Shown: positions 38,401 to 60,570 of the stretch, piece by piece
Layout of the letters: the number at the start of each line of letters is the position of its first letter
Position numbering within the stretch: position 1 is the stretch's first letter
From: Pegea sp. RAD2-039
Taxonomy: Eukaryota > Chordata > Thaliacea > Salpida > Salpidae
Assembly: GCA_034620365.1 (NCBI GenBank)
Contig: JAQGEQ010000339.1
Location: 992,001-1,056,000 of the forward strand
Direction: 5' to 3'
DNA: 64,000 bases
Program-made: the position numbers and the translations under genes
Notes under the pieces: generated by a model
Seen by the model: only the letters and a program-made list of their open reading frames with translations
What the model was told of the DNA's origin: nothing
Databases searched by the model: none

Positions 38401-39054
38401 TGTTTTAGGACTAAACATTAATGTATTTGAAATTAATTTTTAAATATATTTTTTTATTCAATTATTTTATTACCTTTACTACATTGCATTAAAGTATTAG
38501 TTGCTTATAACTTTATATTGATAACCATTGGTCTTTTTTGTATTCAGTCAAAACTTTACAATAGTCCAGATCTATCAAGCAAAGGATTCAAGAACTTTGT
38601 TCTATCTGCCGGAACATCAACAGCACCAGTAAGTTTTTATAAACTTTATTATTTTTATATATTTCATTTTCGAATTTTGTTAGGATGGTTATGAGAAGAT
38701 GATAGAAGAGCTCGAAAGAGATAGGGTGAGAGCTAAAGCGAAACTGGAAGAAGAGTTTATAAAAGCTGATAAAGAAAGAGAAAAGAAGTGGGAGAAAGAT
38801 GTCAAGGAAGCTTTAGAAAAGTCCTTAGTGAAAATTATTGGTGGGTAAAAAGTTTAAAATATAAAAATACAGAAAGTTTAAACACCATTTTTGACCATCA
38901 CAAACAAATCCAATAATCACAACTCTCTTTCATAGGTCAAAGTATTGATGAAATGGACGAGCACATCAAATATGAGAGAGAACATGCCAATAATCCTCTT
39001 GAACATGATCCAGAGGAACATGTTGAGAGCGTTTTAGGACATTATGAGCTCTGA
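35407..39054 (+). CDS. Redox-inactive protein disulfide isomerase-like ER protein
   Basis: Twelve exons: 35407-35569, 35707-35901, 36020-36150, 36758-36907, 37031-37144, 37288-37413, 37497-37709, 37872-37995, 38166-38341, 38548-38628, 38684-38840 and 38936-39054, totalling 1749 nt (582 residues). A signal peptide (MILISLISILVLLTPQSLAA) is followed by an a-b-b'-a' thioredoxin-fold layout. The a' domain is clear from LPSDWNKNDVKYLVGSNYES, as in PDIA1 and relatives. Both catalytic CGHC motifs are missing: the first site reads LTIFYEQNNQGKMALEEF and the second ILVFYYKNDKESKEILPEF. It cannot act as a thiol oxidase at these sites and is more likely a chaperone or calsequestrin-like protein. After a' comes a charged coiled-coil (ELERDRVRAKAKLEEEF), and the C-terminal HYEL resembles a KDEL/HDEL retrieval signal. 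The last 13 coding bases overlap the convergent small gene. Confidence 0.9.
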
Positions 39055-39269
39055 TCATCAATTTTCAATTTTTTAGATACAACTTCTTTATCTTTTTGAA
39101 ATTCTTCAACAAATTGTGTTAAAATATTTGAGGTGTTTTCATTTAGTTTTAATAAGGTTTCTTTAATAGCTGGAATTGTTAAATCTTTCAGACTTATATC
39201 CAAACACTCTGTAGTACCATCTGGCTTTACAGCTGTTGCATAAACCATTTTTTCATCAGTTTTATCCAT
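39042..39269 (-). CDS. Small 75-residue protein, possibly GON7-like
   Basis: A single-exon frame of 75 codons with a good coding look: a short beta-like start (MVYATAVKPDGTTECLDISL) then an amphipathic helix (AIKETLLKLNENTSNILTQF) and a charged tail. The order (YxxxDGxxxxLxVS, then a helix of that length) recalls GON7, the disordered KEOPS subunit of t6A tRNA modification, but the similarity is weak and from memory. Its end overlaps the last 13 coding bases of the PDI-like gene on the opposite strand. The alternative is a chance frame; lack of introns and AT-rich flanks do not decide it. Confidence 0.5.
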   Translation of the reverse strand: MDKTDEKMVYATAVKPDGTTECLDISLKDLTIPAIKETLLKLNENTSNILTQFVEEFQKDKEVVSKKLKIDDQSS

Positions 39270-40560
39270 TTTCCAAAATTAATAAAAAATTTTTAGTTAA
39301 AAATCTATGAAAAAATAAATAGACTATCAAGAAATCAATCTACTTTGCTTTACTTATAAATTATTTATAAGAAAATTAGTCTCAGCTAACAATTAAACAT
39401 TAACAAAACTTTTTTTATCAAAAATATTGAAAGTTCTTACATAACTTTTAATTAATATATGCATATATTAATTATAATTTAATTAATACATATATTAATA
39501 TATATTATTATATTATATAAGTATATACAAAATATATAGTTAATATATTTATTTTTTTGATGTAATATTTTTCTTTAAACCAAAATAAAACTAAATCAAG
39601 CTTTTAGATTTCCACAAAAATTTTTGATCATATATAATAATAAAAATTAATCTAGAAATTGATATAAGCCACACATAAAGCTTTTATTAAACTTTAAACT
39701 AAATAATAAGAACTAAACAAAAGTGTATTTCAAATTTAAAAAAATGTAATTGAAATGATTGAAAGCGATCAAACAAAATTTAAAAAAAAAAACCTTTAGT
39801 CTTTCCCACATAAATATTGAACAGTTATTAAAGTATTTTTATAAAATCTTAACCATAACAAAATTATATAAGTTAAAAAAAACTTTGATATGTAAAAAAT
39901 TATATTACTACTTTTTAAAACCTATAAATATAATTAGTGGAAATTTAATTCCTATAAATATGAGTTTATAAAACAGATTAACAAAAATCAGAGATATAAG
40001 CTTTATATAAAATTTCAAATAAATTCCAAAACCATAAATAAATGAAATTAAAGTTAAGCAAAATTATTTATTATAACTTGAGCAACATATAAAAGTATTT
40101 CACAAGTTATAATAACTACCAGCTGTAAAAGAAATTAAAACCTTTGCTTTTTGTAAGAAAAATTAACTTAGGAAAATCTGCTGCACACAGATAAACACTA
40201 TGTGTGTGTTTCCAATGTGTTCACCATATCGAAACAATATGGGCTAATCTTATTTTTGCGTAGTTTTCTGACAGTTAGTCAAATAGTTTTAAAGCAGTCA
40301 ATCATACTTAGACAAGTTAAAATTTGCAATAAACTAATAAAAAAAGACTTTTAAAAGAGTTATCTGACTGTAAATCTTTAATGATTATAATGTGAAGGCC
40401 TGCTTCGGCCAAGAACGGCCATACTGGGTATGCTTATAAGTGATGATGTTAAAAACAAAGCAAAACACAGTAAAATGAAAAAGAACTATAAAACTAATAT
40501 AGATTAAAAGACAAAAGAGCTAAGAGCAGCGAAACATTTTTAAGGTTTCTTCCTTTTCTT
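39270..40560. other. AT-rich intergenic sequence
   Basis: Extremely AT-rich, with palindromic TA-rich runs around 39.45-39.55 kb. No gene recognised. Confidence 0.5.
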
Positions 40561-41200
40561 TAAAGCTGGGTGTTCTTCTTTATCCTTCAGTGGTTTGTGG
40601 AGTAGAGAGCGCCATTTGGAGCAATCTGCTGCAGTTTCTAACCAATTGCTTGTATTAACGTTGAGCGATTTCATATCATGCTTGCAAGAAGCCCTAAACG
40701 AAAGTAAAAACGGCAGATCTTATGTTTACCTTTTGATGGCTTCTCATACAACAGATCTCGTGAGATCTTTCAGCCGATAGACGTGTCCGAGTCAGCAAAG
40801 CCTTTGATTTACATTGATATCAGGGCTTCAAGATTTTCTCATTTGAGATTTTTTGCTGCCACGTTAAACACAATATACGACAAAGGGAACAAAAGAGGAA
40901 GATATTAAGTTTATTTTCGCTAGCTTTCTACAAAGTCCAAGCTTCACTGGTATACGCTAACGTACTGCAAAGAAAGGCTTTATAGATGATGGCTTTTGTT
41001 TTGATGAATAGCTTTGGATCATCTCAGACCCTAGAGATAAACCATGCAAATGCAACCGATGCAACTGTTGACATTTGCTTCTATTGACACTGATTATGGT
41101 ATTTTTGAACCAAGGTAGACAAAATTACCTACAGCCTCAGCCTCAAAGCCATTGATATTGATTGGTTGTGGAACGTTAGCACCTTAACTTAGAGCTTTTG
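40560..41200 (-). mobile_element. Decayed LINE, reverse-transcriptase C-terminus
   Basis: On the minus strand, broken frames spell the end of an RTE/Jockey-type non-LTR retrotransposon polymerase in order: PININ-GFEAEAVGNFVYLGSKI, then TKAIIYKAFLCSTLAYTSEA and WTL, RILCLTWQQKISNEKILK, LGHVYRL, and finally SNWLETAADCSKWRSLLH. These are the regions after the catalytic palm domain. Stops and frame changes interrupt it, and no endonuclease or catalytic YxDD part was seen, so it is a 5'-truncated dead copy, as usual for LINEs. The related fragment next to U1 copy 2 is its second trace. Confidence 0.8.
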
Positions 41201-42032
41201 TACTTTTTAGAATAATTTTCATTCTAAAGTCTGTACAGGCTGATGAAAATAGGCCCATCAGCATGTGTAGTTCTTTTGTTGAAAGTCAACTGTAAATCTT
41301 TAATAACTGTCTAATTCCATAACTGTCTAATTCCATAACTGTTATTGCCATATTTTTGTAACGTTTTTAATTTACAAATCTTTTTTATATTTTTACTTTA
41401 ATTTTGCCGATTATAATTGTTTTAACTCCTTACTGTATAAGCACAAATAAATGTATCTTTTCTTAAATATTTTTAGCTGCGATTTAAACAGTTAACTGAA
41501 GAACCTTTTCCATTGTGACTAGTTTCAGTAAATTTCATAAAAAAAATTCTACTTCTGAACCTTTAAAATTTTAACTTTTAGGTTTTTAATTCATGGAAAT
41601 TTACTTCCATCAAAGTAATTACTATGCTGAACAACAACTTTACATCTAGTCAACACTTCGATGTCTGTTGAAAATATTAGGATAGTAGGCAGTTAGGTCT
41701 TTAACAACTTCTTTTATGAAAATATTAAAAAAGTTAGAGTTTCGACTTTTGTGACAGATAATTTATCTCTACTTTTGATCATCGAAAACTTTTTACGGCA
41801 ATTTTAATTTAAGTTTAACTTTGCTGAATATCAATCAGTGAAAAGCAACTAATAACGACAGAAGAATATATTTCTTAAAGATTAAACACAACACGACTTT
41901 TTTATTAAGTTTTTATTTAGCTCGAAACATTTACAAAGAAATTCTGGAAACACGAAAGACCAACTTTCAGCTCCTTACTTTGGCTTGTATCTGTAAAATA
42001 AGAAGTTGTAAAAAATTGTAAAGATGAAGAAG

Positions 42033-43073
42033 TTAAAACCTTTTGAAGTTTCTTCTCTGATGTTGTTTTGACGCTACACCAATCCTAAACGCTTGACTGC
42101 AAACGTCATGCTTTGCAAAGGGGTTGCTCCCATCAAAGTCTTCGCTCCATACATTGGTCTTCTGCAGAGACTTTCTAGAAGGATAATTTTGTGGGATTCT
42201 TTGATCTTCACATAAGATTGGGTTGACAGCATGTTTGCCACCACGAGGGGTCGGTAGAGAGTACTTCTTGCCACGTTTGCTTAAAACTTTGGGATTTCTA
42301 GATAGAAACATCTTAACTGAACCATCTTCCTGAATTTGAATCGGAACTCGTTTTAAAGTGTCGTTGCCACAAGCAGGGCAAAATCTCTTGCTCATATCTG
42401 TAGTAGTTTTGAAACAAGAAAAGCATCTTTTTATGTATGATCTCACATTCTCAATTAACATCCCATCAACTGAATAGATCTTCAACTTCATCTTCAATAA
42501 GACATTCTGCATCGCAAAATCAGTAGTCAGGCAAACTACTTTGTCTGGTTGCTTCTCTTCTAAAGACTCTTTTTTTGATCCTTCCATTTCACGGAGCATT
42601 GCTGGAGTAATCCATCCATCTTCATCTAAAACTGTGTCTTTCAACTCTTCAGTAACCTTTTCTATGTCTTCTTCTGGAGAAGATTTTGGGGAATAGAATC
42701 CTGGAAGGTCTCTTGAAGCATTAGATCCAAACTGAATCTCTTTTTTTGCTTCAATTGATTCAGAATCTTCTAAAGGATCATGATCATGTTCACATTGAAG
42801 TTGATAAGTCAGAGCAATCACTTTAATATCAGTTGAAGATAAATTATGATAATCTCCAATCTCTTTAGAGATCTCTATCACTTTTCGGATATATTTAGGA
42901 GCTGGATCTTTTAATTTCAACTCATAACTGAGAACTTGTAATCTTCTTTTAGTAGCTGAGTCTCTTATTTCACTAATTACTTCACCACAAGTGAAAACTT
43001 TTTCACTGAAGTCTTGAAGACTAGCATTCCGAATAAAAGCTCCAGAGTCAGCTACAACAATTTCTGCTTTCAT
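42033..43073 (-). CDS. NOB1: 20S pre-rRNA D-site endonuclease NOB1
   Basis: NOB1 cuts the 3' end of 18S rRNA late in 40S assembly. One exon gives 346 residues (human 412). The N-terminal PIN domain shows its acidic residues: VVADSGAF, CGEVISEIRDSATKRRLQVL and LSSTDIKVIALTYQL. An acidic, less conserved insert precedes WITPAMLREM and CLTTDFAMQNVLLKM. The zinc ribbon is RCFSCFKTTTDMSKRFCPAC (C-x2-C-x12-C-x2-C), then FLSRNPKVL, YSLPTPRGGKHAVNPILCED and RKSLQKTNVW. The frame ends RRNFKRF. A splice from the donor at about 42037 to an acceptor at about 41985 would instead end RNFKRYKPK at 41975, closer to the basic C-termini of relatives; I cannot choose. It is shorter than vertebrate proteins mainly in the insert. 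Confidence 0.95.
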   Translation of the reverse strand: MKAEIVVADSGAFIRNASLQDFSEKVFTCGEVISEIRDSATKRRLQVLSYELKLKDPAPKYIRKVIEISKEIGDYHNLSSTDIKVIALTYQLQCEHDHDPLEDSESIEAKKEIQFGSNASRDLPGFYSPKSSPEEDIEKVTEELKDTVLDEDGWITPAMLREMEGSKKESLEEKQPDKVVCLTTDFAMQNVLLKMKLKIYSVDGMLIENVRSYIKRCFSCFKTTTDMSKRFCPACGNDTLKRVPIQIQEDGSVKMFLSRNPKVLSKRGKKYSLPTPRGGKHAVNPILCEDQRIPQNYPSRKSLQKTNVWSEDFDGSNPFAKHDVCSQAFRIGVASKQHQRRNFKRF

Positions 43074-46000
43074 AATTAATCTATTAAATAAAAGCTACAA
43101 AAAATCTTTTTAACACTTAAACTTTTATAATATAAAATTTGATGTTAAATAAAATATAAATTAAAATCAAGAAATATTCATAATAACAAAAAGTTTATTG
43201 TAGTAGCAGTAATTAATAAAATAAATGAATTTATTAGAAATATAGAAACTTTTTAACATAGGAAGTTAATAGTTAAGAAAAATAAACAAAGATTTAATTG
43301 AAAGAAATTAAAGTTTTTAAACAATAATCTGCATAATAGCAGTAAAATACTAAAAATATACTTTATGTTAAATTATTGAAATATGTTTATCTTTGTGATG
43401 ATTACCAATCTAAAAAAATTAAAAGAATAAACTTAGAAGAAAAATACAATATATAAATATATATAAATCAGTAAAGTACTATAATCAAAATTATAAATAA
43501 TAAGAAATGAAGCATTTAGAAAAAACTTAAATATTCTTGCTGCTATTATGCTGTATAAAAAATGAATCATAAATAGTTTAATCATAATCTATCATTTATT
43601 TGCTTTATACTAATAATATAAAATTTTATAAAGTAACAAAAACTATTAAAGAGCAAAACTATATAAAGGAAAAATAAGAATAAAGTATGTAAAAAACTAA
43701 TTGTTTAAAATTAAAAATCATTTATATAAAATAATAAAAGCTTATACCAAAAAAACTTAATATATATAATTAAATACATGCTTGTAATCTAAATCCTATA
43801 ACACAGGTAATTTAAAGCATTATTTATGGTAAAAAATAATTTTAGAATTTACCACTTATTTCATTTCAAGAAAATCTAAATAAATTTTACAAAAATGATA
43901 AAACTTTCGAGAAAAATTCCCTCCTTTAGTGAAAATCTGCTATGCTCTGAAATAAAGTAACACATGCAGGCCTATGTTAAAAAGGTTGTTACTAATATGG
44001 CTTTTTAAGATTTAAAATAATTTATGTACTTTATTTTCGAGACATTTTACTAAGATTTTATTTTGATAAATTTTATTATCAGAGGTTTGCAACTGATTTT
44101 AGCAAACTTAGATGACTATTTTTGAAAGAATAATTGAATACAAAAATTGTAAATTATCATACAAGCTTATAGAATAAGTTTAGAGTTTCATATCTACTTA
44201 TTTACAAGCAAATTTATAATAATGTTATACGTAAGTATGGAAAAGTTAAACGTTATTTTAACTGTTTACAAATTTAAGCTATTTAGTTGAATATCAAATA
44301 TATCTGTAATAAGCTCTCATAGGAATTGTTCCATGGTTAAAATGGGGGATATTTGTTTATATAACATTTCAATAATCAGACAACTTCTTTTACTTTGATG
44401 TTTGAAATATTAAAATCTTGCTTTTAGTGGTCGAGAACTTTGAGATGTCGCAAGCTCAGAGTAGTGCACAGAAAATATATCTCATTCTACTTAAACGATA
44501 TATTAAAATCCTTATTAATAAACAATAATTTAGAAAACCTTATGATTTTACTCGACAGTGTAATGAAACTTTTTTGATACTTACCCTAGATATAGAGACA
44601 TTAGAAAAATTAGTGATTGTTGAACTTTACGAAAACTTTTATTTTATCCTAGTTTAAGAAATAACTTAAGTCAAAACTGAGCTAAATCTAGATTAATTTT
44701 TAAGATCCTGTATAAAAGTTTATTTTTACTTTATTAGTGATTTCTAAGATTTTTGAGGTTTTAGATGAAATGAAGCGTCAGACAAAGTAAGATAATACAA
44801 AGGCTTGATGGCTATTTTTAAAGAAAGGGATCCTTATAAAGTTTATTGTTTGAAATCTTTTACTCTATGAAATGACTAAACCAGGCAACATAATTATGTG
44901 AAGACTTTAATCTTTGTACAATTAAACTATTTTGGCATAAAGCAAAATTTCCTATTTTTAAAGTTGGTCTGTTGTACCAAAAGTACTAAAGTTTTGTTGC
45001 TTATCTAAATATTTAGTTTCAGAAATTAATTTCAAAACGTACTGTAGTAATATTTGAATAAATTCTGTCTATCTAGTCTTTATTATTTAGACTTAAAAAG
45101 TTACACAATTTGGTCATTATTTATAATACTCTACACCATGTTATTAATATATATCCTTTTTTAATATTTTCAATATTTTGCTTAATTTATTCTTTTTTTA
45201 AGATTATTGTATAGTATCATTAAAATTAACTTGTCATATACTATATTTGGGCATTCATCACATGACTGTACATCATATATAAAAATATCTTAACTACAAA
45301 ATAGCATCATCAGCATTATGTATATTTACTTTTATCATCTTTTATTTATAAATCCATTGTTTAAAAGATTTGTTGGTTTTATCTATTTTATGAGTTTTTT
45401 TTTTTTAATGTCTTTTCAATTTTAACATATAAACTTTGGTTTGAATTAAAATTTATTATCATATGCAATTGTAAATTATAAATTTATTTAAGATTTGATA
45501 ATTCAGAATTTTTAATTTATTAAAATTTACTTAACTATAAATGCATCAATTATTTTTATAACTTGAAATAGTGCAGATGAATAACACATTTCCGAATTTA
45601 ACTAATTAATTTAAACAACTGATATAAACTATGCATTAAAAAATATATATTAAATTAATTTTTTAAGCAGAATAGAACTATTTTAAATTTTTCAACATTA
45701 TTTTGATTTTATAAAATTTTAATTTAAAAGTTAAAACTTTTTATACTATCACTATGCAATAAAGTATCATGCAATTAAACTTATTTAAATTAAATTTATT
45801 AAATATAATTTTTCCAAAAACGAGAATAATTAATCAATTAGATACTTATTAGTAAAGCAATTAGCATACACTTAAAACATATGCTGAAAATAAAAGAATG
45901 GAACTCATTCTAAATGGTTTATTATCAATTTATTTCTTGCTTATTATCTTCATATAACTTTATTTTTTTATGTAAATTAATGTTTTTATAATGATTAAAA

Positions 46001-46637
46001 CTTTGTTAATTTTTTGTTGCTAAAAAGCTGATATGCTTTAATATTCATTTTATACAAATTGTTGTATATAAACTTCCATTTGTTACTTTGATTATAATAT
46101 CAGAATCACTTGAGTTGTTCAAGCAGAAGTTGAATCATTGTAATATTGCCAACATTGCCATTTCTAAACTATGATTTTTTTTATATTATTAACATTTTGT
46201 GTAAATGCTCACTGTTATATGCTTTAAAGACTATCGAAATGCCATGTGTTACATCTTTTTTTTTCTATATTTCTAACTTAATAGATGCTATTTGTGAGAA
46301 TGTGTGTTAGCGAGAGGTGCTCTCTTCAGGCACCCTCCTTCGCATTTATTTAAATAAATTAATTAAATATCTTATATAAGTTGAATAGCTGCTATAATTA
46401 TGTTGTAATTTTTTATTAATTTCTTCTATTTGATAGAAAATATCTTCAAAACTATATTCTAAATTATCTAAAAAGATATTAAAAGTTTCACAAAAGTTTT
46501 CTTTTATAAATTATAAATGAAGTAAAAAGTTTATAAATAGAGTGATAATAATTTGATTATTTTGAAGAATAAAACATGTATATCAACATTCTATCTTAGA
46601 ATGTTTTAATTATTCATAACTTAATGGTATCTAAACA
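43074..46637. other. AT-rich intergenic sequence
   Basis: Lies between the divergent starts of NOB1 and the TACC gene. The only supported item is hairpin repeat copy 2 at 46285. No other gene or RNA recognised. Confidence 0.5.
46285..46350 (+). repeat. 66-bp hairpin repeat, copy 2
   Basis: Near-identical to copy 1 at 22265, including the full GAGAG-GTG-CTCTC stem-loop. Differences cluster just 3' of the stem (GCGC versus ACCC) and at the ends. It is followed by AT-rich sequence and lies about 290 bases before the TACC start codon. Confidence 0.7.
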
Positions 46638-49600
46638 ATGAATGAAAGATCAGTAAATCCTACTAAAACTTCAGAAGAAGGAAGTGGCTTCTTTTCTAAG
46701 ATCGGAAATTATCTTTTTGCTTTAGCTTCTTCTGAAGAAGCAAAGACTATAGAGAAAGATCCAGAGAGATTTGAAATGTCAGAAGATGAACTTGAGACTT
46801 CTGGTCAAATCAATGACGTCATCATTGATTCAAAAGAATTGGAAGAAGAAAATAGGAAAAATGATAAAACACCTCTAAGTTTAATGACATCAGAAGAAAT
46901 AAAGAATAATACCTCAAATGATTTTGAAGATATGACGTCACGTCAAGTGGAAGATATGACGTCACATCACATGGAAGTTATGACGTCACATCAAGTTGAA
47001 GATATGACGTCACATCAAGTTGAAGATATGACGTCACATGAAGTTGAAGATATGACGTCACATCTAGTTGAAGATATGACGTCACATGAAGTTGAAGATA
47101 TGACGTCACATCAAGTTGAAGATATGACGTCACATCAAGGTGAAGATATGACGTCACATCAAGGTGAAGATATGACGTCACATGAAGTTGAAGATATGAC
47201 GTCACATCAAGGTGAAGATATGACGTCACATGAAGTTGAAGATATGACGTCACATCAAGGTGAAGATATGACGTCACATCAAGTGGAAGATATGACGTCA
47301 CATCTAGTTGAAGATATGACGTCACATCAAGTTGAAGATATGACGTCACATGAAGTTGAAGATACGACGTCACATCAAGTTGAAGATATGACGTCACATC
47401 AAGTTGACGGTATGACGTCACATGAAGTTGAAGATGTGACGTCACATCAAGTTGAAGATATGACGTCACATCAAGGTGAAGATATGACGTCACATAAAGT
47501 TGAAGATATGACGTCACATCAAGTTGAAGATATGACGTCACATCAAGTTGACAGTATGACGTCACATCAAGTTGAAGATATGACGTCACATCAAGGTGAA
47601 GATATGACGTCACATCAAGGTGAAGATATGACGTCACATCAAGGTGAAGATATGACGTCACATCAAGTGGAAGATATGACGTCACATCAAGTGGAAGATA
47701 TGACGTCACATCAAGGTGAAGATATGACGTCACATCAAGTTGACAGTATGACGTCACATCAAGTTGAAGATATGACGTCACATCAAGGTGAAGATATGAC
47801 ATCACATCAAGGTGAAGATATGATGTCACATGAAGTTGAAGATATGACGTCACATCAAGTTGACAGTATGACGTCACATGAAGTTGAAGATATGACGTCA
47901 CATAAAGTGGAAGATATGACGTCACATCAAGTGGAAGATATGACGTCACATCAAGTGGAAGATATGACGTCACATCAAGGTGAAGATATGACGTCACATC
48001 AAGTGGAAGATATGACGTCACATCAAGTTGACAGTATGACGTCACATCAAGTTGAAGATATGACGTCACATCAAGGTGAAGATATGACATCACATCAAGG
48101 TGAAGATATGACGTCACATGAAGTTGAAGATATGACGTCACATCAAGTTGACAGTATGACGTCACATGAAGTTGAAGATATGACGTCACATCAAGTTGAA
48201 GATATGACGTCACATCAAGTGGAAGATATGACGTCACATCAAGGTGAAGATATGACGTCACATCAAGTGGAAGATATGACGTCACATCTAGTTGAAAATA
48301 TGACGTCACCGGAAGCGGGTGATTCTGTTGGAAACAATCAGAAGATAAAAACTTTTCATGTCGATGATATTGATGACGTCATCAAAAAGCCTTCAATAAA
48401 AAAACCAAAAAGAAGTTTAAAAAGGCCGACTGCTCGTAAAAAGATACCTAACCTATCCCTTGACCACTTGCCCACTGACCACTTGTCCACCAATGATGTT
48501 CCATTTCAAGACTTTTATTCTGTTGACCCGTTTGCTTCAAGGTCAAAACTCCAAAATTCCCCGCCGCTGACGTCATCATTTTTAGTCAATAGCAAAAATG
48601 AAAATGTTGATTCACCACCGCTAGAGGCAGCAGAGAACAAAGTAAGATTTTGTGTTGATTGGTTTCCTTGACAACAAGTTTTCTCTTTTCAGGGTTTTCA
48701 CGACTCCCTAGCAACCGACTTTAGGTAAATTAATTGATTTTCTGATAAATTATTCAATTTTCTGATTAAAATTTTATTTGTAGAAAACAAGATTTTGGTA
48801 AGTGTTTGACTCCATCTTATTTTGATGTTTGGTTTGTCTGCCGCTAACCAGCAGTCGCGAGCGAAGTTGTCGTGGCTACAATGACGCGTACTCAGTGAAG
48901 CGGAAGAACGCTTTAAACAAACTTTTCACCTTTCATTTCTTAAACTTTGTTTTTACTTCAGTAAATTATAATTTGATTTTTAACAGGATTTGAAAATCAG
49001 AAGCAGCTGACTCAGCAGAGGTATAATGACGTCACTATTGTTAATAGTTAATTTCGTTATGACGTCATTACAGCATTTAAGATCTTTTTGAAGTGACAAA
49101 ATTTCTTCTTATGATTTTTTTTTCTTTTAGAAATATGTCGGTTGTTGAAAGTGGAGAAAATTTAGAAGTTTTACAAAAAAGAGTTTCGAAAAAAGTAAAT
49201 TTCTTTTTAAAACTTCAAACTTAATCTAACAAATTACCAAATAATTCAGGGACTTTTAGGATTTCGCCCAAATTATTCAAATGATGAAGAATTGAAGAGC
49301 AAGTTGGAAAAATTGAAAATGAAGAAAAAAAAGTTACAAAATTGGATTCGGCTTTCGCAGTTCGTTTCGCTTCATTTCTCTTCAACTTCTTCACTAAATC
49401 TCTCTTCTTCAGAGATCACAAAGATTTCTGTGAGAAGATGAGGAGCCACTTGGCGGCGCTGTTGCAGAAAAAAATCGAAGAAACAAACTCGCGACAAAGC
49501 GACTATCGCGGCAGATTGGACGATTATCATCACGTGCATTGCCAGGTTTCCGACTTCACTACGCGTGGTTACAACATCGACGAGCAAGTCGCGCGCATCA

Positions 49601-49967
49601 AGCAGGTTTGTGAGACGTCATCAAGTGTGTGAAGGCGTTTGTGACGTCATCGACGCGTTTGTAGGAAAACGCGATGCTGAAGGAGAAGCTGGAAATGAAA
49701 CGCGAACGCTATAACCTCACACAACAAAGATTAATCCGACAATTAGATGAAGATCAGCAGATGATGCGGGAGTCACGTGATGATCTACAACAGAAGCGCG
49801 CGAACATGAACGACGAGATGACGCTGGTGGAAGCGCGGTTACGTTCCACACAAATTCAGATGACGTCATTAGAAGCTGATTACGTTAGCAAATCGGAACA
49901 ATGTGAAGAAATGAGAAAGTTATGTGATGAATTAATCTTCACAGCTGAAAATAACCAAACTAACTAA
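46638..49967 (+). CDS. TACC: TACC-family coiled-coil protein with a giant internal repeat
   Basis: TACC proteins bind microtubule ends and centrosomes with XMAP215/chTOG. Eight exons: 46638-48641, 48693-48724, 48784-48797, 48987-49020, 49131-49194, 49250-49359, 49413-49605 and 49665-49967; 2754 nt, 917 residues. The C-terminal ~220 residues are heptad-rich and end with LRSTQIQMTSLEADYVSKSE and EEMRKLCDELI, the pattern of the TACC domain end (LRxxQxxxxSLE...L..ICDDLI). The first exon is huge: residues 1-98 acidic (SEEGSGFFSKIGNYLFALAS), residues 99-562 are 58 octapeptides with consensus MTSHQVED, then a basic patch (IKKPKRSLKRPTARKK). The repeats replace the acidic, serine-rich region of other TACCs. 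The donor after exon 6 (CA|GTTCGT) is weak and was chosen for phase. An AATAAA is at 50121. A 443-codon antisense frame across the repeats is a by-product of the 24-base period. Confidence 0.85.
46932..48323 (+). repeat. 24-bp coding minisatellite, 58 units, each with a CRE-like palindrome
   Basis: Exactly 58 units of 24 bases, consensus ATGACGTCACATCAAGTTGA plus AGAT, in frame with the TACC gene. TGACGTCA, the full cAMP-response/ATF palindrome, is intact in all but units 19, 37, 38 and 49. Variants change residues 5-8 (QVED, QGED, EVED, LVED, KVED, QVDS). Units 34-45 and 46-56 repeat the same order with one unit lost, and units 37 and 49 share the same TGACATCA change, so a 288-bp block was recently duplicated. 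Confidence 0.97.
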
Positions 49968-50418
49968 TCTGTTACCATGACAACCAAGCTGCTTCGGTCG
50001 ATGACGTCACACACACAAACGATACTTTTCTATTTATTCATCTAATTTCATCTAAAGATATCTGTATGCAAATTAGATCGATGACGTCATCATCGCTATT
50101 TCTTTTTCTATTTTTCTTTCAATAAAATTTAACTTAAAAAAATAGAAATTTTGTTTATGAGAAAATTAAAAAGTTTTTTATTGAAAAAGAAAGTTCTTAA
50201 AGCTGTAATTACTTAAAGTGGTGAAGTCACGTGACATGCAAATGAAGGTCATAATAAAAGTCAGTGAAACACAAAATACATCTTTTTCCGATTATTGTGA
50301 TTTGCATAAATTTGCTGAGTTTGGAAATTCTGGCCTCTATCGATTAAGGCCCCAACTTTAACAAAATTCCTTTCTTCGATTTCAACCTTTAACCAGATAA
50401 TATGAAGTCATCAGCGCG

Positions 50419-51645
50419 CTAATAGTCGTCTAATTCGCCTTTCTTCCACGACGTGGGGATGACGTCATGATCGCGCGGCGGTGTAGGAAGTTGTAGCTGA
50501 AGTGGGTCGCGAAGACGCTTCAAATCCGCTTCGATTTCATTTACTTCTTTCACCATGGCATTGTATCTGTCACGTGATGACATCACATTCACCACATACT
50601 CATTGACGTCATCACTAACCGTGCAATGTCAAAATCGCGTTTTCGTGCCGCCTTATAGAAGAATCGAAGATAGACGCGATCACGTGCTGCTGGATAGATG
50701 TATTCCTAGAAAAAACATGTAAAGACGATGACGTCACATGATGACATAATACTGACCTGTTGGGTGAGCAGGAAGTAAGCGTAGAAGACGATCGCGTAGC
50801 CAGCAGTGATGAAGTAGGTGACAGGTTCCATAATATCCCACGAATATTCCCACCAAGTCAATCGCGCTAAAACACCATATTGCGCTGCCATAGCAACCAT
50901 ACCGCCAATCATCGACACCTTAGTACGCGTCACAGCTGACTGCTCACACTGGTCGCGAACCTGAATCGATTTGTCAGATGACGTCATCAGTAGGGGCGTG
51001 AGAACCTTTTGAAGTGGGGCGAGAAGTGACTTAAGGTGCTCGAGGCGTTCTTCGAGACGTTTTTGTTTGTCGCGTTGAAACTCTTCGATATTCAGTTTGA
51101 TGTAAAGATTTGAAACAATAGCGCGAGTCGCTGAGACGTCATTCATCGCTACGTCATCAGTTATGTGATCACCTACGTCATCAACTGCGTCATCACCTCA
51201 TCTATTAATCCCAGGTCTCACCTGAAGGGACACAAGGCGATGTGACGTCATAAGTGACGTCATTTATTGTGATGTTGAAGTCACTTAAGATCAAGTTGCC
51301 AATTCTTGTGGAGGAAGACACGCGGTTCCCATCTAGAAGATACTGGATGAAGATTCTAAAAGACTCTTCCATCTTTATTCACCTTTATTGTAGATCGCGA
51401 CACGATCGATTCCGCCATCTTCCGTCTTTAAATCTTTTATAAAATCTCGAACTGATGACGTCACAGGTAATAATGTGAAGTGACACATCTCATTTCGTGA
51501 TGGTAATTTTAAATCAATGGTTGGCAAACCATTGATGTACTTCATCACAACTAAAAGCAATTAAAAGTGAAATAAAGTGATCTGATTGGTCAATTTTACC
51601 TCGTTCATCAGATGCTTGAGATGAAGATAAACGAAGAAGGGTTAC
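50419..51645 (-). CDS. MCU: Mitochondrial calcium uniporter pore subunit (5' exon not found)
   Basis: MCU forms the Ca2+ channel of the inner mitochondrial membrane. Minus-strand exons: 51600-51645, 51383-51550, 51222-51332, 50757-51148, 50620-50705 and 50419-50566; 317 codons with the stop (human 351 residues). The matrix N-terminal domain is clear (YINGLPTIDLKLPSRNEMCH, TEDGGIDRVAIYNKDGNRVS). A coiled coil (KRLEERLEHLKSLLAPLQKV) leads into TM1, then the selectivity filter loop WWEYSWDIMEPVTYFI with the essential DIME residues, and TM2. The C-terminal helix EIEADLKRLRDPLQLQLP is also conserved. All visible residues suggest a working channel. The first exon, with the mitochondrial targeting sequence, should lie to the right of 51645 but was not recognised. 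Confidence 0.95.
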
Positions 51646-54600
51646 CTGAAGAAGAAAAATTGTTTATTGATCTGTTAGAAGCTTTTAAGTTTTCTTTTTA
51701 TTGATTTTTGCTACTTTTCTGAAACTATTTGAATTTTTTGACACAAATTATTTACCTGATGTGAAATATAAGTTTTAGAAAAACGAAATAAATTTGATGG
51801 CCCCAGAAATCTTTTCATCTTGATCTTTTGATTAAAACTTTATTTGAAAATAAAAACTAAATAAATTTTTGTAGAAATCTTTTTAAGGTTTTTTATAAGA
51901 AAGTGATAATCTCTATCTTAAGTATAAGATCTGTTGTTTATAAAGTAATAATTATTATAAGTTTTTTATGTTTATTTAAAATCATAAAAATATTTAAATT
52001 TAGAAAAAAATCTTATGTATAAAATTCTAAAGTAAACAAATTAAGAAGTTTTCTTTAAAATTCAGTAAAAAGTAATTCTGATAAACATAAATTATATATA
52101 TACCTCAAAAATAAAAATAAATCTATAAATAATACATACATTCAGAAAAAAGAACTTATAAATTTAGAAATAAAAATGTTAAGAAACTGAAAAAGCATGA
52201 CTTATAAAATCAAAAAATACTTAAATAAAAAGCATAAATAACAAAGATATTATAACAAAAATATTTCTAAATAAACAAAACTTTATTTTTAAAATTCTCT
52301 AACTTATTTAAAACCTTTGTTAGCTAATGTGAAAAAATAAAAAAGTATCTTTGATTTTACTTGTCAAAAAACAGCTTCTTTCCAAGATAATCAAAATTGA
52401 TAAAAAACAAAAAAAATCTTACAGTCTGTTGAAACTTGTAAGACAAGACTGGCACAGCAAGAAACAATAACTTAAAATAAAAGAATTCGTTTGCTTACGT
52501 AGATGAAAAATGTAAATAAATGAAATAACTTTGAGATTAGACGTTCAGAAAAAAAGTGGATAAATAAATCAAAATAAACAATACAAGAAATTAAAAATTA
52601 ACTTTTGTAGTTAATTAAATACATTTAGACATAAAGTTGTTTTGTAGTTACTTTAAAATCAAAACAAACTTCTCTAAGCAAATGCCCACAAACAGTAAAC
52701 AAACGTTTTACTACAAAAATATTAAAACTATAATTAAAATTTTACTACAAGCTATAAACATTTGCAAACAAAAATGTGAATTGAATAGTTTCAAAGTTTT
52801 ATATATAGTCAGAATGATGAATTTTGATTAACAATATTACAAATAATCATCAAATTATATCTAAAAGTTCATTGCTATTTTTAGTTCTCAGTAGTCATAG
52901 TGCGAGCTTGTAAAAAAACTTACAAATAGTCTTTGAGATGATTACATGGGTTCATCTAAAATAAGGAGCTTCAGACCTTCAAATCAGGCTCTAAGCTTCC
53001 TTTATTCTGTCCTGATCACTGTCTTAAATTTATGTCCAGACTGATAAGAATGTTGAAGGCGAAAAATTGATATTTCAAGACTTTTAGGTCGGTGTTTTGA
53101 TGTATTGCCCTGAATAATAAGAAATATTTTTAGAAACAACTCTTCTTAAGTTTGCAAAAGGAGTTCAGTCTTGTCTTGATTAGTATCTAGATTAGTATTT
53201 AGAACTTACACTTCTAAAATTACTTAAGACTTTAGAAAGTTTTGCTGAACTATTTTTTCAATGTGTTAAAAAAGATTTCGATAGAAAGATAGTCGAATAT
53301 CTTTTTGGTACTACGTTGTAATTTCTTAAAACTTTTAAATAGTTTTTTGTTTGTTTATAAAGTCTTATTTAGTCGTACAGTTTCTCAACTATGATAATCA
53401 GTTCTTAAACATTTGTTTTCTGAGATAAACAGTTTTTGAGATAAAATTTCTTATTTTGATTGATAAATTTAGATCTATTTTTAGAAACCAATAAATTTCT
53501 GAATTTTTTTCTTTTTTTACACACAGCTTATTCTACGACAAGCTTGACAAATAAACTATACAGATTCATTTTCTTTTATTTCTAATTTAGTTTTATGCAT
53601 TTACAAATCTCTTAATAATGATGATTAATTAAAACCACCTTTTATTTCTAAACTAATTTTATTAAATAAATGCGTTTCTGTTTTGGATATGGTACATTTT
53701 GGGCTTCCTTAATTAATGGTTTTACGTTTTGTTTTTTGGTTTTTTAATATCCACATTTAGATAAAATTTATAATTTACCAAAAGATCAAATTTGGGATCA
53801 AATCTTATTTAAAATCTTGAAGAAATTTGACAGTCATGTAGTAAAAAGGTTTCTGAAAGAATGTAATCCAGAATTTTAATTTTTCTTGAAGTTAACTTTC
53901 ACGACAAAAGTTTAAAGCTTCAGAAAGCTCTGACATCAAATTGCTGGTAGGTAATTACCGGCTTCGAGACTCAACGAGTGAAGATTTTCTTCTTCGAACT
54001 TGAAACGGAATTATTTTAATGATAGATATGATGGTTTTCTCAAACCTACGTCTAACCTTAACTTCAGTCGAAACTACAGAACAACGGAAATGGCTTCCGA
54101 GTATTTTGGCTCAAAACAAAATTACAACTTTTAGAATGCATTGAAGCAAAAATATCTTCTTCCATTTAATTTCGAGTTTAAAAGTCCTGTAAGTATTTCA
54201 AACAAATAGATTTTGATTGAAGACATTTATGTATCGAAACTGAAGAAGACTTAATTTAATAAAATCTTTAATTTTCCAAGAAAAATTTTCGTTTCTTAGC
54301 AATAGTTCTATTTCGTGATCGGCCATCTAGTAACTGATATCGCCAAGTTCATTCAATTTCGATCTGCTTCATTAATCTCGGGATGGGCGTCATGACGTAA
54401 CTTACGCTGATATCTTTAATTACACCTATGAAGATGAAAGAAGTCTTGTGTGACGTCATCACTCACTGTCGTGAGATTGTACTTTCACATGTCATTGAGG
54501 TGTTTGTTTGTATGTTTGTTTTTGCCCAAAAGTGATAAAACACTTGATTGTTGGTTATCTTCAAGTTTTGATTTCAATTCTTATTTCTTTTGTTGCTTTT

Positions 54601-54876
54601 TTAAGGTTTTAAAGGAAATATTTTTTGATAATTTTTCAACTTTTATTTTCAGTTCGATTTAATAAACTTCAATTTCTCATTTGAAGTTTTGTATTTCAAT
54701 TTTCCGAAATAAATTATTCCGAAATTATTCGGTGCGAGAAAGAAGAGATGAAAGCGAGAGAGAGAGGAAGAAAAAGAGATCATAATTGCAATAAAAGTCC
54801 ACTCCACTTCCTAAGACTGTGTCAGATAGAGATTTGTAGGAAAATTTAATCTTTCAAATTATATTATTTGTTGAAA
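51646..54876. other. Intergenic region between MCU and Wnt
   Basis: 51.7-53.9 kb is AT-rich with no recognisable gene; the missing MCU 5' exon may be here. 54.7-54.8 kb just upstream of Wnt is a purine-rich GAGAG tract that could be part of its promoter. Confidence 0.4.
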
Positions 54877-57170
54877 ATGTGGACATCTTCACTGATGTCT
54901 CTTCTGATTAATCTTCTTCTGATGATTCTTCTTATCATTCATTCATCTCAATCATATCAGCCTTGGAAGTAAGTGTCCAGTTGAACTGTCGCGTCATTTT
55001 CTAGTGTTTTATGACTATTTACTTTCATTTTTTACAGGTCTATGTCTAGTATTCATCAAGTTTCAACTTTTATATGTGAACAGCATGTCCTTACCCCCCA
55101 ACAGAAACAAATCTGTCTCAGGTAACCCTCCCCAACCCTCACCCCCCTAACTAGCCGATTTCTTACCCTAGCTGGTTTCAAAGCGACCCCAACAGCATTG
55201 ATATGGTTCAACGAGGAGTCAACATCTCCATCCACGAATGCCAACATCAGTTTAAGAACGAAAGATGGAATTGTCCTGCTTTCCGACACGATACAGACGA
55301 TGGCGGCGAGCTGATCGGTTAGTTACTTCTTTTTTACTATTTACAACGATCCTGTTGCCAGGTTGCCTGGTAACCATGGCAACCGACCAGCCAGCTAGGT
55401 AAGTGCCGTTTGTTGTCTAAACCTTCCACTTTCTGCTACTTTATGACGTAATTAAGCGACGCGGGCGCTGCCTTGCTGCTCATTTATCCAATTTTGTGAC
55501 GATAATAATTTGGTTGCTCGGGAGGGGGGCTGGAGAAAATTGTTCGATTTGTGACTGGTTACTAATTTGCATAGAAACCAAGCCTGGAAGTCGCGAATCG
55601 GCGTTTGTGCACGCGATCACCTCAGCAGCAATTGCATATCGCGTCACCGCGGCTTGTAGTGATGAAGATCTTCAACACTGCACTTGTGATCCTAAGAAGA
55701 GAGGTGGAAGCTCTACTGACGAACAAGGTGAGTGACAGCGTTGTGATCTAAGTGATGACGTCATTATTTTGAAGGAAAATTTGAATGGAATGGATGTAGC
55801 GATAATATCAACTATGGAGTCGATTTCGCGCAGCGGTATCTCGATTCACTCGAAACTTCCAAAAATGACGCGATTAATCGCGTAAATCTACACAACAATC
55901 TAATTGGACGAAAGGTTTTTGCATTTTTATTAATTTTTTTTTTGCTTGAAAATCGAACAGCACCATCTGATTTTTATATCCGTTTGAAATCTGTGAGATA
56001 GAGATGAACAAACAAACCTCCTGACTGGCGCTTTGATCTTGAAAAAGCCGAAAATGTCGTAAATCAATCTTGGCCTGCCGTAATTCGTCTGTCAACAGAG
56101 TTTTCAGCCTACACAACTTTCCAATTTCAAATTTATTTCTCCAAATTTTTTTCCTTTTTCATTTTTTTTTTGCTTCATATTTTCTCTTCTTTTCATTTAT
56201 GTAATTCCATTCATCAAATTTTTCTTCGGTTAATTACACCGATGTCGCGAAGCGGTGATAAGAATTCTCACTGATTAATCGCGCGTCAAATTTTCATTAA
56301 ATTTGCATAAAAACCACCATCATCATCACCTAGTAACCAACAGCAACCTATATGTCCCTCTTCCGACTTGCTTCCAACTTTGACACGCTTCACCGCGTCT
56401 ACTAATAACGTCATCATCTTCAATAAGACGTCACTAGAAAATTGCGCTAATGACGTCACTGCCATTTGACAATTAGTCTCCGTTCTTCAGGCAGTAAAGA
56501 AGTTCTTCAAACGTAAATGTCGTTGCCATGGACCAACCAGTACCTGTCCCACACGGACCTGTTTTCAAATTCTTGAAAATTTTCGAATGACCGGCAACTA
56601 TTTGAAGGAGAAATATGACCGGGCACTTAAAGTTCGTGTCCTAGAAAATGGGACAATTAAACTTAATCGACGTAGATCTATGAAAACTCTAAAGGGCCGC
56701 AACCACCTCTATTACCTTGAAAGGTCGGCGGATTATTGTAAAAGAGATGTGGCTAAAGGTGAGGACCTCAACATTTTGGTCATTTAAAAAACATTTTATG
56801 TCCAGGCTCCTTGGGGACTGGTGGACGCTTATGTAACGCGACCTCTAAGGGACGCGATAGTTGTGACCATTTGTGTTGTGGACGTGGCTATGATGAAAAG
56901 CGCGAAACATCGACGATTCCTTGCAGATGCAAATTTGTTTGGTGCTGCAACATGACATGTAGTACTTGTGACGTCTCATATAACATGTACACTTGTAAAG
57001 AAGACCCAGATGAGAATCGAACTTTTGTCGCTAAATCGTCACCACCGCTTGTTGCTAGGAAACGGAATCGCAGCCGAAAGTTTAATCGACGTCGAAAGAG
57101 CTGGAAAAATAGTGGACGTAAGCGGACACGAAATGTGACGTCATCACCACCATCGGTGACTTCTGGCTGA
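54877..57170 (+). CDS. Wnt: Wnt-family secreted ligand with atypical acylation site and basic tail
   Basis: Seven exons: 54877-54968, 55038-55121, 55172-55317, 55575-55727, 55775-55914, 56491-56758 and 56806-57170; 1248 nt, 415 residues. A hydrophobic signal peptide (MSLLINLLLMILLIIHSS) is followed by Wnt signatures in order: HECQHQFKNERWNC, SRESAFVHAITSAAIAY, FEWNGCSDNINYGVDFAQRY, RKCRCHGPTSTCPTRTC, LYYLERSADYC and CDHLCCGRGYDEKR...CRCKFVWCCNMTCSTC. Cysteines are well kept. The usual CHGxSGSC loop, whose first Ser is palmitoleoylated, reads CHGPTSTC, with Thr at that place. Wnts normally end soon after the last CxC/CK; here 56 residues follow, with a strongly basic stretch (RKRNRSRKFNRRRKSWK). 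The subfamily cannot be told. TGACGTCA sites lie in introns and just after the stop. Confidence 0.95.
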
Positions 57171-59205
57171 AAATCGCACTTATGACGTCACGAAAATTTG
57201 TAATTACATCAAAAGCTCGACTCACTACTGAACTGTGATTTTATATTCGCCCTTCCGCGCCTGCTTCTCGCTCGATGACGTCATTTCCGCCTGTCTGCAA
57301 AGGAGAAGAAATCTTAATAGAAAAGTGCTTGTCATGTGACGTAAGAATGACGTCAGTGAAAAGCGACAAGTAGCGATTGTATGAATCTGAGGAGTGAGGT
57401 TGAAATTTGCGAAATTTGCTCGTAACTTGAGAGGATAATTTTTCTCACAAAAACTTTTTTTTTGCTTTTCGAGTCTTTTGAGATTAATTTCTTTATCTGA
57501 CTCGACTAAAAATTGCGTTTTTGGAGCTTTTTCGGCGTGACCGAGCCAGCATAAAAGCTTCAATTGTGACGTCATGTCGTTTACTTTGATGTCGCAGATT
57601 GTGACGTCATCAACTACCCGATGATCGACTGTGTGAGACTTCTTCTCAATTATCACGTGATTTTTGGAAGATGATTTTGAAAAAAATGAATAAAAATATA
57701 ATTTATGAAATAATTTTGATGCTTGGTATAAAAACTGGGAACAGAAGCAGATTTTAAGATGATTAGGGCAGTTAAAAAAGGGGGCTGAAGAGGTGTAGAA
57801 GTGAAAATAAAGTAAAAAACTTTTAATTTGAGAGACTGACTTGCAGCTTTCAATATTTTAGTTGTAATCTTTAAAGATTATTTTGAAAATTTGTAAAAAT
57901 TTTGCTACAAACTGAAAAGTTTAAGTTGAAAATTATCCAAACTTTAGATCTCTAATCCTTCAGATAAAAAATTTTCAAATAAAAATAAGAGTGGTTGATA
58001 AAATTCTCATGAAAGATTTTTGAGAACTTCTCCTGATCTTGTATTCAATCATATTCTAATTGAAAATGTCTGAAGTTTACTAAAACATCAATTTCATTTG
58101 AAAAATCTTTCAGACAAATTGGACTTTTAACTTTTTGATTTATTTTTATCAAATTTTGAATTTGTCAAAATTTGAGGAAATATTATTTTGGATGGAGTTT
58201 TAATCAAGAAAATATCTTCTAATTTCACAAGGTACAAGCAGCAGTAGCAGCAGCAGTAAATTTTCTTGAGAAACTCTTTTTTTCAGCTCTTTTCTAATAT
58301 TTTCTCCCATAATCCACCAATTACCAAACTAATTAAAGTTATGACAAAGCGTTTGAATATTTACTCAAGGGTTACACTCCGATAAGTTTACATCAGCTGT
58401 TCTTATCTTCCAAACAACTTCTATCAATGCTGAGTTTTGGTGTAAATGTAGTTCAAAAATTGAACAATTCTCGAAAACTTGTAAATTTATATTCTCGGAA
58501 CAAATTTCTTTTTTACGAATTTAATTTCTTTTTTTGTCAATTTTTGGTAAATGATACGATTAAAACTAAATCACCGAATTATTTGCATAACACTTTGTAT
58601 GCAGCATTCAAAAATGGCTGTTTTCCGGCCAATTACATTTTTCTATTGATGTTCAACTGATGATGTGAGATAATCAAACAAGTGTCACGTGATCATGTGT
58701 GTCGGGAAGCTCCCTCACTGTTGCTAGTAGCAACATAACTTCTTTCTACATTGACCGTATTTTGCGAATCTGATCAAAACTCAATTCAGTTATAGAACCG
58801 TGATTGGATGAAAGCAAGAGACTAGTTCAAGATCAACATCCAAAAAAAAGATCAACATCCGAAGGAAGGATAAGCATCCAGAAGAAAGGTCAGCATTATC
58901 ATCAGCTACAACTCCTAATTAGTCCTCACTTTAAAGTCGAGATAAATTATAATTAGTTTAGAATCTAATAGCAGCATAATTCAATTCTGCCAGAAGTATT
59001 TTTGGATTACAAGTTTCTTCAAACTCTCCGTTGTCGATAAAAGGCTTTCCACCTGCAGTCAGCAAATAAATTTAAACTATAACTTTCAATTAGGTTTCAA
59101 AGCTACTTTTACGATTTTAGATTTTATCCGCTAAGCGGCGCTATTTACCCCTGTTTGTAAATTCAAAATTTTTTAATTGAAATGGAAATCTAAAATCAGC
59201 TTATA
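57171..59205. other. Intergenic region after Wnt
   Basis: Contains many TGACGTCA palindromes at 57.1-57.6 kb, a 143-codon minus-strand frame at 57225-57656 without recognised similarity (possibly an exon of an unknown gene, ending ARKGEYKITVQ), a short CAG run near 58.24 kb, and three or four ~19-bp repeats of AGATCAACATCC-type sequence at 58.83-58.90 kb. None is strong enough for a gene call. Confidence 0.35.
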
Positions 59206-59870
59206 AGTAATTGCAGTGTTGAAATGATCTTCATCTTCAGCAAGGATGTTTGGAGGACTTTGATGGAGAGTTTTATTTAAATTCAGCAATTTGGAGAAAT
59301 GATTTGATCTTCTCAGTAACTTTTAAGAACAGAATCAAGATTATTTCCAAAATAGTTCATTATTCTTCCGAAGAAGATTTCGTTTGTAGATCAAAGGATC
59401 AGTTAAAGAGCTGATCTCAGTCTCTTTATTTTTAGATATCTAATTGATCATTTGAAGAAACAAGCATCGATCTGGGAGCAAAAAGAGAATGGTGAGGACA
59501 GTTTAAACTTTATGAAAGTCTTTTAATCTCATCCGTAACTGCTAACAGCTTTCCCGGATCCAAGTAGTCATGATGAAGAGCGGATATAGCGGAAGGATTG
59601 GAAGATAAGAAGCGACTGTTACGCCATCGATGCTTAATCAAGTTAACTTCAAGCACCTACGTCATTACATCGATTTCTTTTCAGGAAATAATGTTGCAAG
59701 TTACTACCACTCGATTCGCTTCTATGACAACCAAACCGACTTCACAAGCACCGGGCGACCAGATAACTGAGCGTTGGTAGTTTTCGAGGTGAAGCGGTGA
59801 TGACGTCAGGCAACTTAGTGACGCTAACAGTTGCTAGGGGTACCGATTTTGCTTTTTTGTTTCGTAATTT
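59206..59870 (+). pseudogene. Inverted, decayed partial copy of the DPP4-like gene
   Basis: Nearly the same sequence as the minus strand at about 62.75-62.94 kb: the exon that encodes [20 protein letters not shown] and the intron before it are both present, so it arose by DNA duplication, not retroposition. Further right the match continues in pieces: AACAGC-TTTCCC (from the 62.5-62.68 kb exon), then FYDNQTDFTSTGR-like sequence and GTTGCTAGGGGTACC (from 62.0-62.4 kb). Stops, a deletion and frame changes break it. The order is that of the functional gene, in opposite orientation. Confidence 0.85.
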
Positions 59871-60494
59871 ATTTGTGATATCGCAGAAATATTTATTGCA
59901 AAAAGTAATCTCGAAATTATCAACCAAATTTCTAATTAAAGATTTTGTAATCGTTAGTCGCCTCATAATTAGTTCTAAAATTTTATAAAAAGTTGGTAGC
60001 TGTCAAAGGTCCCAGAAAAAGTTAGGATCAAATCCTTCAAAAGAATATAAAAACTCAGAGAAGAAGGATTATTGATCCAAGGAGCTTAAAAGCAGAAGAC
60101 TCTTCTTATAAAATTTTGTTGTTCTTGCTGCAAGGTTCCGCGTTACCACGAAGACAACAAATACTCTGGACCACCTCTAAGCAGAGCTGTGGTTCCCATT
60201 TGTCCTCTTCCGCCACTATCGCTAAAGGACTGTTCGAGGTTTATGTTGACTACTTTCATATATTTTCATTGGTTGATTAGTGGACAGGAACGCGCGCTGA
60301 ACTGTTTAGATCTGTTACTTGGTGACTCGGCTCAGTGGACTGGGACAGTGACCTCGAGATGGTATATTTTCTGACAGGGCTGAGTGTAATATCTCTCAAA
60401 GCAATCACAAGCTAGTGACACTATTCATCCACTCTTGAGGAATCTATTTTTCGCGTTCGGTAGGTGGCGTGGTAGAGTGCAGTGAGCATTTTGA

Positions 60495-60570
60495 GATGTG
60501 ATTCGAACCCACGCTTGCAAAAACACAGTGTATTACAAGGCTAATCGACTTCAAGCTCATCTTGTTGCTA
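60495..60570 (-). repeat. tRNA-like fragment, possible SINE head
   Basis: The minus strand reads GCGTGGGTTCGAATCACAT, with a perfect pol III B box (GTTCGAATC) and a mostly paired T arm, preceded by GATTAGCCTTGTAATACACT, like a tRNA anticodon arm. The acceptor stem cannot be closed, so it is not a working tRNA; a degenerate tRNA or tRNA-derived SINE is likely. Confidence 0.35.

Follow-up and report, generated by a model that had tools for sequence, protein, structure and literature searches.

Members of the TACC family include D-TACC, TAC-1 and Alp7. The coiled coil of TACC3 binds chTOG/XMAP215-type partners at centrosomes and spindles, and SDP-type repeats are present in some vertebrate members without being universal. 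Among DNA motifs, HIP1 of cyanobacteria is an over-abundant, sharply kept octamer palindrome found across coding and non-coding DNA. The cAMP response element (CRE), the octamer palindrome TGACGTCA, is the site of basic leucine zipper (bZIP) factors of the ATF/CREB type. Its position at promoters was surveyed in nine animals in 2007 and, in the part of that survey that concerns sea squirt, fly and worm, no positional bias is reported (PMC1796609). The stretch analysed here (the window) comprises 64,000 nucleotides of Pegea sp. RAD2-039 (contig JAQGEQ010000339.1, positions 992,001 to 1,056,000, forward strand). It contains a predicted TACC-like gene, half of whose product is encoded by 58 tandem units, most of them carrying TGACGTCA. 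This array is probably a coding minisatellite that arose by amplification of gene sequence containing a CRE and gave the protein an acidic spacer of 464 aa. It appears to be a pattern seen in DNA across the genome, taken here to a local extreme, and not a special protein invention.

The array consists of 58 in-frame units, each of exactly 24 bp, at 46932-48323 (+ strand) of the window and corresponds to residues 99-562. It lies in the middle of a frame that is open throughout from 46638 to 48671 (+). Tandem Repeats Finder (TRF), run on the window, gave a 24-bp unit in 57.8 copies at 46924-48309. A preliminary description made from the sequence alone had placed 58 octapeptide repeats at these residues of a 917-residue protein, within one exon. 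TRF, the reading frame and the splice model given below confirm this, the exon being exon 1. The 'perfect period' claimed there is true of unit length, which is always 24 bp, and not of unit sequence, with 17 distinct sequences among the 58 units. The consensus unit is ATGACGTCA CATCAAGTTGAAGAT and is read MTSHQVED; between units, Q is replaced by E, L or K, V by G, and ED by DS. ATGACGTCA, whose core is TGACGTCA and with whose translation the repeated peptide begins, opens 53 units, and exact TGACGTCA is present in 54 of the 58. MTS is written ATGACGTCA (ATG ACG TCA) in 53 of the 55 units that have this tripeptide, and the Thr codon ACG accounts for 0/15 in the NOB1 open reading frame (ORF) of the same window. 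A tally of codons deviating from the consensus unit gave 66, of which 54 change the amino acid and 12 are silent. The excess of changing differences, together with the uniform spelling of MTS, fits a product shaped by DNA. All array data come from a single assembly.

The palindrome was then counted in the whole genome (105.7 Mb, 387 contigs), where TGACGTCA occurs in 27,792 copies and the reversed word ACTGCAGT in 969. AGTCGACT, which has the same letters, is also palindromic and has a CpG centre, is present in 694 copies, 40-fold fewer, which rules out CpG composition as the cause of the TGACGTCA excess. The variants TGA(A/G/T)GTCA, on both strands, together reached 21,279 copies vs 11,004 for their reversed controls. 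Smaller counts were made in a 200-kb sample plus the window minus the array, the sample consisting of 20 stretches of 10 kb each, placed at round-number positions of three contigs and thus not random. There, TGACGTCA was found 36 times as often as expected and its twelve one-step variants 0.3 to 3.8 times, the CpG-decay product TGATGTCA among them at 2.5 times (25 seen, 10.2 expected). The motif is therefore sharp. Several non-palindromic octamers were more enriched in the 20 stretches; these came from the tandem arrays of one of them (L020). The 20 stretches hold 21 TGACGTCA vs about 53 predicted from the genome mean, as clustering would give.

Flanks of 106 non-array copies showed the preference (A/G)TGACGTCA(T/C) and, with three bases each way, TGA TGACGTCA TCA, i.e. 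TGATGACGTCATCA. Past three bases on either side information was near background. TGACGTCA thus does not look like a transposon relic, and a transposon or longer repeat was ruled out as its source on this ground. Flanks also seemed to differ with the orientation of the gene, TCA on the right numbering 49 and TGA on the left 23 (p 0.003), but this came from one gene (35:13 in L043, 14:10 in the others) and was not relied on. Clustering is strong: 277 pairs of TGACGTCA are spaced by exactly 23 bp vs 7.3 expected from an even spread. The densest case, C21:1751501-1757500 (L043), holds 80 exact TGACGTCA in 6,000 bp, up to one per 75 bp, mostly non-tandem, TRF giving three rows of at most 2.5 copies. 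ORFs of at least 100 aa in L043 hold 2 to 9 copies each, and by eye the palindromes occur within ORFs as well as in the short, intron-like intervals that separate these. Sushi domains were found in 3/5 of the L043 ORFs scanned. A second palindrome, TCACGTGA, which we take to be a site of the basic helix-loop-helix-zipper type, is present in 4,614 copies genome-wide vs 237 for its reversed form. It was seen 20 times in the CRE-rich stretches (0.7 expected) and tracks CRE over 131 two-kb bins (rho 0.35).

In the window, 88 TGACGTCA were counted vs a mean of 0.48 over 100 shuffles, which is therefore not chance. Outside the array there are 34 copies vs 0.46 expected from dinucleotides, and 32 of them are within 46.8-63.5 kb. 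No TGACGTCA was found from 30,832 to 46,813, upstream of the TACC-like gene. Outside its array this gene has four copies in exons, three in introns and two downstream of the stop. In two of its frames TGACGTCA is stop-free and reads MTS/LTS or DV; in frame 0 it gives a TGA stop, and the first two are therefore the only readings possible in exons. Compared with the CRE, the octamer and its A/G and T/C flanks are the same; here the sites lie inside genes, in exons and introns, and downstream, up to 80 per 6 kb. The likeness to HIP1 is that of an over-abundant, sharply kept and dispersed octamer palindrome; the sequence is different, the genome is that of an animal and the copies are strongly clustered. 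No report of a genome-wide TGACGTCA excess in an animal was found in the literature searched by listed titles.

The gene model was predicted from GT..AG sites and the reading frame. Its eight exons splice to exactly 917 aa across seven introns of 51-189 bp; one of the donors, GTTCGT at 49360, is weak. The features of the gene are as follows.

46638-48641, + strand: exon 1, with the acidic N-terminus, the octapeptide array and the start of the middle part (ORF, splice model to 917 aa)
46814-46821: TGACGTCA outside the array, exon 1, read NDVI
46932-48323, + strand: array of 58 24-bp units, consensus MTSHQVED, 54/58 with exact TGACGTCA (TRF, in-frame reading)
48374, 48568 and 49861: further exonic TGACGTCA, read DDVI, LTSS and, inside the coiled coil, MTSL
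48461-48490, + strand: two 15-bp units TGACCACTTGCCCAC (DHLPTDHLS), with the octamer TGACCACT common to the array at 27297-27507
48693-48724, + strand: exon 2 (splice sites and frame only)
48784-48797, + strand: exon 3 (splice sites and frame only)
48987-49020, + strand: exon 4 (splice sites and frame only)
49131-49194, + strand: exon 5 (splice sites and frame only)
49027, 49060 and 49642: intronic TGACGTCA
49250-49359, + strand: exon 6, in which the TACC_C match begins (splice model, Pfam)
49413-49605, + strand: exon 7, coiled coil (splice model, Pfam)
49665-49967, + strand: exon 8, C-terminal half of the TACC coiled coil, the best-supported homology, with TGACGTCA at 49861 (Pfam, Protein Data Bank (PDB) search)
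50002 and 50082: TGACGTCA downstream of the stop

The array has what defines a coding minisatellite: head-to-tail units, a period divisible by 3 and an open frame running through it. Like known coding minisatellites, its variants are interspersed, its most changed units (58 and 2) are at the edges and its product is of low complexity. Unlike them, it has a unit with a palindrome whose own frequency across the genome is greatly raised. The following course is proposed. Replication slippage or unequal exchange would have multiplied an exon stretch in which TGACGTCA was already present. Arrays of this kind would persist in exons where the unit length is divisible by 3 and TGACGTCA stands in a stop-free frame (MTS or DV). 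The protein would thereby gain a low-complexity spacer of 464 residues with a net charge of -115, between a short acidic head (residues 1-98, net charge -14) and a slightly basic middle part and coiled coil (+3 each). If it behaves like that of TACC3, the coiled coil would engage chTOG/XMAP215-type partners at centrosomes and spindles. The spacer, free to vary in length, would determine reach and bulk charge. The preliminary description had suggested a flexible spacer, among other roles. A length-variable acidic spacer is reasonable, and a flexible acidic spacer is the likely role of the array in the protein. DNA explains the MTS peptide itself better than selection for protein chemistry does, because the unit is built on a genome-wide palindrome and in-frame arrays are frequent; the peptide sequence would mostly be a by-product of the DNA sequence.

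Arrays elsewhere in the genome were compared with this one. In 264 kb (the window and the 20 stretches), TRF gave 8 arrays of at least 4 copies and a period of at least 10; in 5 of the 8, the period is divisible by 3 and the array lies in an open frame of at least 144 aa. A search with the array peptide gave 22 matches (150 of 175 candidates scored). Nine were in this array, one of them on the minus strand, and 13 at 8 other loci, which rules out that the array is unique. Only C3:391k and C3:813k, of these 8 loci, have TGACGTCA in their units. At least the following arrays, not all of them found with the array peptide, carry TGACGTCA.

C3:813967-814166: 8 sites, DDVTNNKR, in a serine/arginine-rich ORF of 737 aa
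C3:391171-391682: 21 sites, DDVTEWRV in one of four open frames, the coding strand, if any, being ambiguous
L034, first ORF: VTSSEEDQNH, 4 exact sites in 12.9 units
L034, second ORF: TATDDV, 3 exact sites
C6:3500206-3500363: no ORF of 90 aa

In the two L034 arrays the palindrome is kept in only part of the units. In the window itself, a further in-frame array of 10 x 21 bp (MTTDHLS/MTTDHLN) is present at 27297-27507. It adjoins a condensin-subunit match (Cnd1, 64 bits, 27850-28248), and its octamer TGACCACT recurs in the two 15-bp units of the TACC-like gene. L020 (C3:300001-310000) carries two neighbouring minisatellites at 5266-9830, of 88 x 20 bp and 97 x 22 bp, without an open frame and with a GC content of 0.47-0.50 in an AT-rich genome.

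Several of these results weigh against a coding minisatellite built on the CRE. Only the array of the TACC-like gene carries TGACGTCA among the five in-frame TRF arrays, the other 4 being without it. A period divisible by 3 makes an open frame partly automatic, and coding is likely but unproven for the comparison arrays. Six of the 8 loci found with the array peptide lack TGACGTCA in their units: C66, C25, C6:3911k, C10 and C147 have none in the 701-901 bases looked at, and C284 has two sites 680 bp apart. As a consequence, the array does not prove that TGACGTCA drives amplification; the palindrome may simply have sat in the amplified stretch and is not a demonstrated driver. Pairs of TGACGTCA at 24 bp number 304, 50 of them from this array, hardly above the 277 at 23 bp, so that a frame-specific enrichment of the 24-bp spacing is unsupported. 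Across the whole array the core was changed at 4/464 positions vs 71/928 for the other positions, a low level that is mostly inherited by unit duplication and so is not independent evidence. The edge units (1, 2, 57 and 58) speak in favour of the minisatellite: in these units, picked after the array had been seen and with differences tallied by hand, the core was changed at 0/32 and the other positions at 15/64 (Fisher p 0.002), or at 0/32 vs 10/64 (p 0.028) once variants shared array-wide were removed. AlphaFold, run on 26 units, gave a helix with a predicted local distance difference test (pLDDT) score of 56.5 and a predicted template modelling (pTM) score of 0.22, which is uninformative and shows neither disorder nor structure.

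The identity of the gene was examined separately. The C-terminal 361 aa matched Pfam TACC_C (PF05010) at 26.1 bits (E 8.5e-6, profile 25-201 of 201) and no other Pfam family at E <= 1. This score lies below the family's curated cut-off of 29.9. Exon 8 on its own scores 26.4 bits and exons 6-7 add nothing; the upstream exons are therefore joined by frame and not by added homology. In a search of 177,635 PDB sequences, TACC3 took the first two places (5lxn, E 0.001; 4pky, E 0.006; next match 0.13), with an alignment running through the conserved end (EEMRKLCDELI / EELTRICDDLI). The gene resembles the TACC family in its C-terminal coiled coil, its TACC3-like end and its acidic N-terminal half. 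It differs in scoring under the Pfam cut-off, in the 464-aa octapeptide array that makes up half of the protein and in the SDP tripeptide, which was not seen when the 917 residues were read by eye; as SDP-type repeats are not universal in the family, this was given no weight against membership. A six-frame TACC_C search of the genome at E <= 0.001 returned this gene plus one locus, C28:332029-332571 (L010). This is a 200-aa exon with a second TACC_C-like coiled coil (23.7 bits, cut-off 29.9) ending in DLKEFTSICEELL, and is perhaps a TACC paralogue, although TACC3 was not among the matches listed for it in the PDB search. That the gene encodes some other coiled-coil protein is unlikely. It would agree with the sub-cut-off score, with matches of the same kind at L010 and in 2/14 prokaryote control genomes under the same search, which means that TACC_C scores at this level alone do not prove TACC, and with a weak match of exon 8 to the Tri-helical family (16.9 bits, cut-off 27). 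The sole Pfam family, the TACC3 structures at the head of the PDB matches and an architecture of acidic N-terminus and C-terminal coiled coil speak for TACC. The homologue announced in the preliminary description is consequently kept in a reduced form: homology is supported but weak, and 'TACC-like' is the right label.

For the array, a different explanation would make the DNA the functional part: a dense row of 54 bZIP (ATF/CREB) sites in 1.4 kb would form a regulatory or chromatin element within the gene, and the peptide would be incidental. The exact CRE core with its flank preference, the parallel enrichment of TCACGTGA and its association with CRE, and the retention of the core in edge units agree with such a platform. 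The TGACGTCA-free stretch upstream of the gene, whose sites all lie inside it, and the in-frame arrays without the palindrome, commoner than those with it, do not, and we consider this explanation improbable. Still less probable is the view of the preliminary description that the MTSH/ED octapeptide was selected as a metal- or partner-binding multimer. The 58 repeats are kept in frame, with His in 56 units and an acidic residue in 58/58 (read from the unit list), but MTS is written by a genome-wide DNA palindrome, the changing variants exceed the silent ones, unlike what protein-level constraint would give, and AlphaFold returned no fold confidence. Nothing was found in support of metal binding by the repeat. 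Hotspot alleles of recombination are expected to disappear through conversion. The least probable explanation, in which CRE copies are such hotspots and each unit attracts double-strand breaks so that the array expands, would agree with the excess of 23-bp pairs and requires alleles to be gained where loss is expected, in a genome in which arrays without CRE are common. Its precedent is M26 (ATGACGT), an Atf1-Pcr1-dependent meiotic hotspot of fission yeast; in ade6, the same review reports, a full CRE is neither bound nor recombination-promoting (PMC9775316).

As a TACC variant the array of the TACC-like gene is a curiosity; as a pointer to the abundance of the palindrome it matters more, and the cause of this abundance is a more interesting question than the array. 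Neither base composition nor a longer transposed repeat accounts, as far as tested, for the TGACGTCA excess. The palindrome occurs within exons and introns of some genes and is nearly absent over the neighbouring 46 kb, and a DNA-level pattern of this kind can write recurring peptides into several proteins. We tentatively propose, at somewhat less than even confidence, an actively maintained, dispersed, non-transposon system. Its members would be about 27,800 copies of TGACGTCA, or TGATGACGTCATCA in extended form, with TCACGTGA as partner; in certain genes the copies of TGACGTCA gather at densities of up to one per 75 bp, in both exons and mini-introns. A DNA-binding or transcription-coupled process would create or keep the sites, and would write MTS and DDV into unrelated proteins as well as the 58-copy array of the TACC-like gene. 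What creates or protects the sites (transcription-factor binding, unmethylated chromatin or recombination) is a question that can be tested.

Base composition was compared with the distribution of the sites. The CRE-rich stretches, which were chosen for CRE, have an observed/expected CpG ratio of 1.04-1.07 vs 0.71 elsewhere, the CRE-poor set behind the latter value excluding L020. With 6 CRE, more than any other of the 20 stretches, L020 has a ratio of 0.31 and consists largely of its two minisatellites; the CRE-rich L042 has a ratio of 0.88. When all 20 stretches were divided into 100 two-kb bins, the number of CRE per bin was unrelated to the CpG ratio (rho 0.02, p 0.82) and weakly related to GC content (rho 0.23, p 0.02). 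Because no relation was found in these bins, the idea that CRE-rich stretches are factor-protected unmethylated domains is only a lead. The window shifts in composition near 46 kb, from a GC content of 0.28 and a CpG ratio of 0.72 (0-46000) to 0.35 and 1.06 (46000-64000), and its GC-rich side carries 32/34 of the non-array TGACGTCA.

Matches to C5 DNA methylase were also recorded. Seven lie in single open frames of 832-873 aa (C57:819728-821071 and 825001-826344, C249:1740707, three on C32, and C52:9209), one pair being inverted and 4 kb apart. Further matches are split (C49) or partial (C262). A BAH domain is present in both methylase ORFs scanned (2 of 7; L044 and L045). The single-frame copies are possibly retrocopies or borne by mobile elements. 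The genome is compact and AT-rich, and mitochondrial COX1 was not found in the assembly. Wnt marks the genome as that of an animal and was the ground for rejecting a glass sponge as its source; GH6, which is not known from animals other than tunicates, suggests a tunicate. A Wnt match scored 77.2 bits, and a GH6 exon (35.2 bits, cut-off 27) is flanked, by eye, by further exon-like ORFs.

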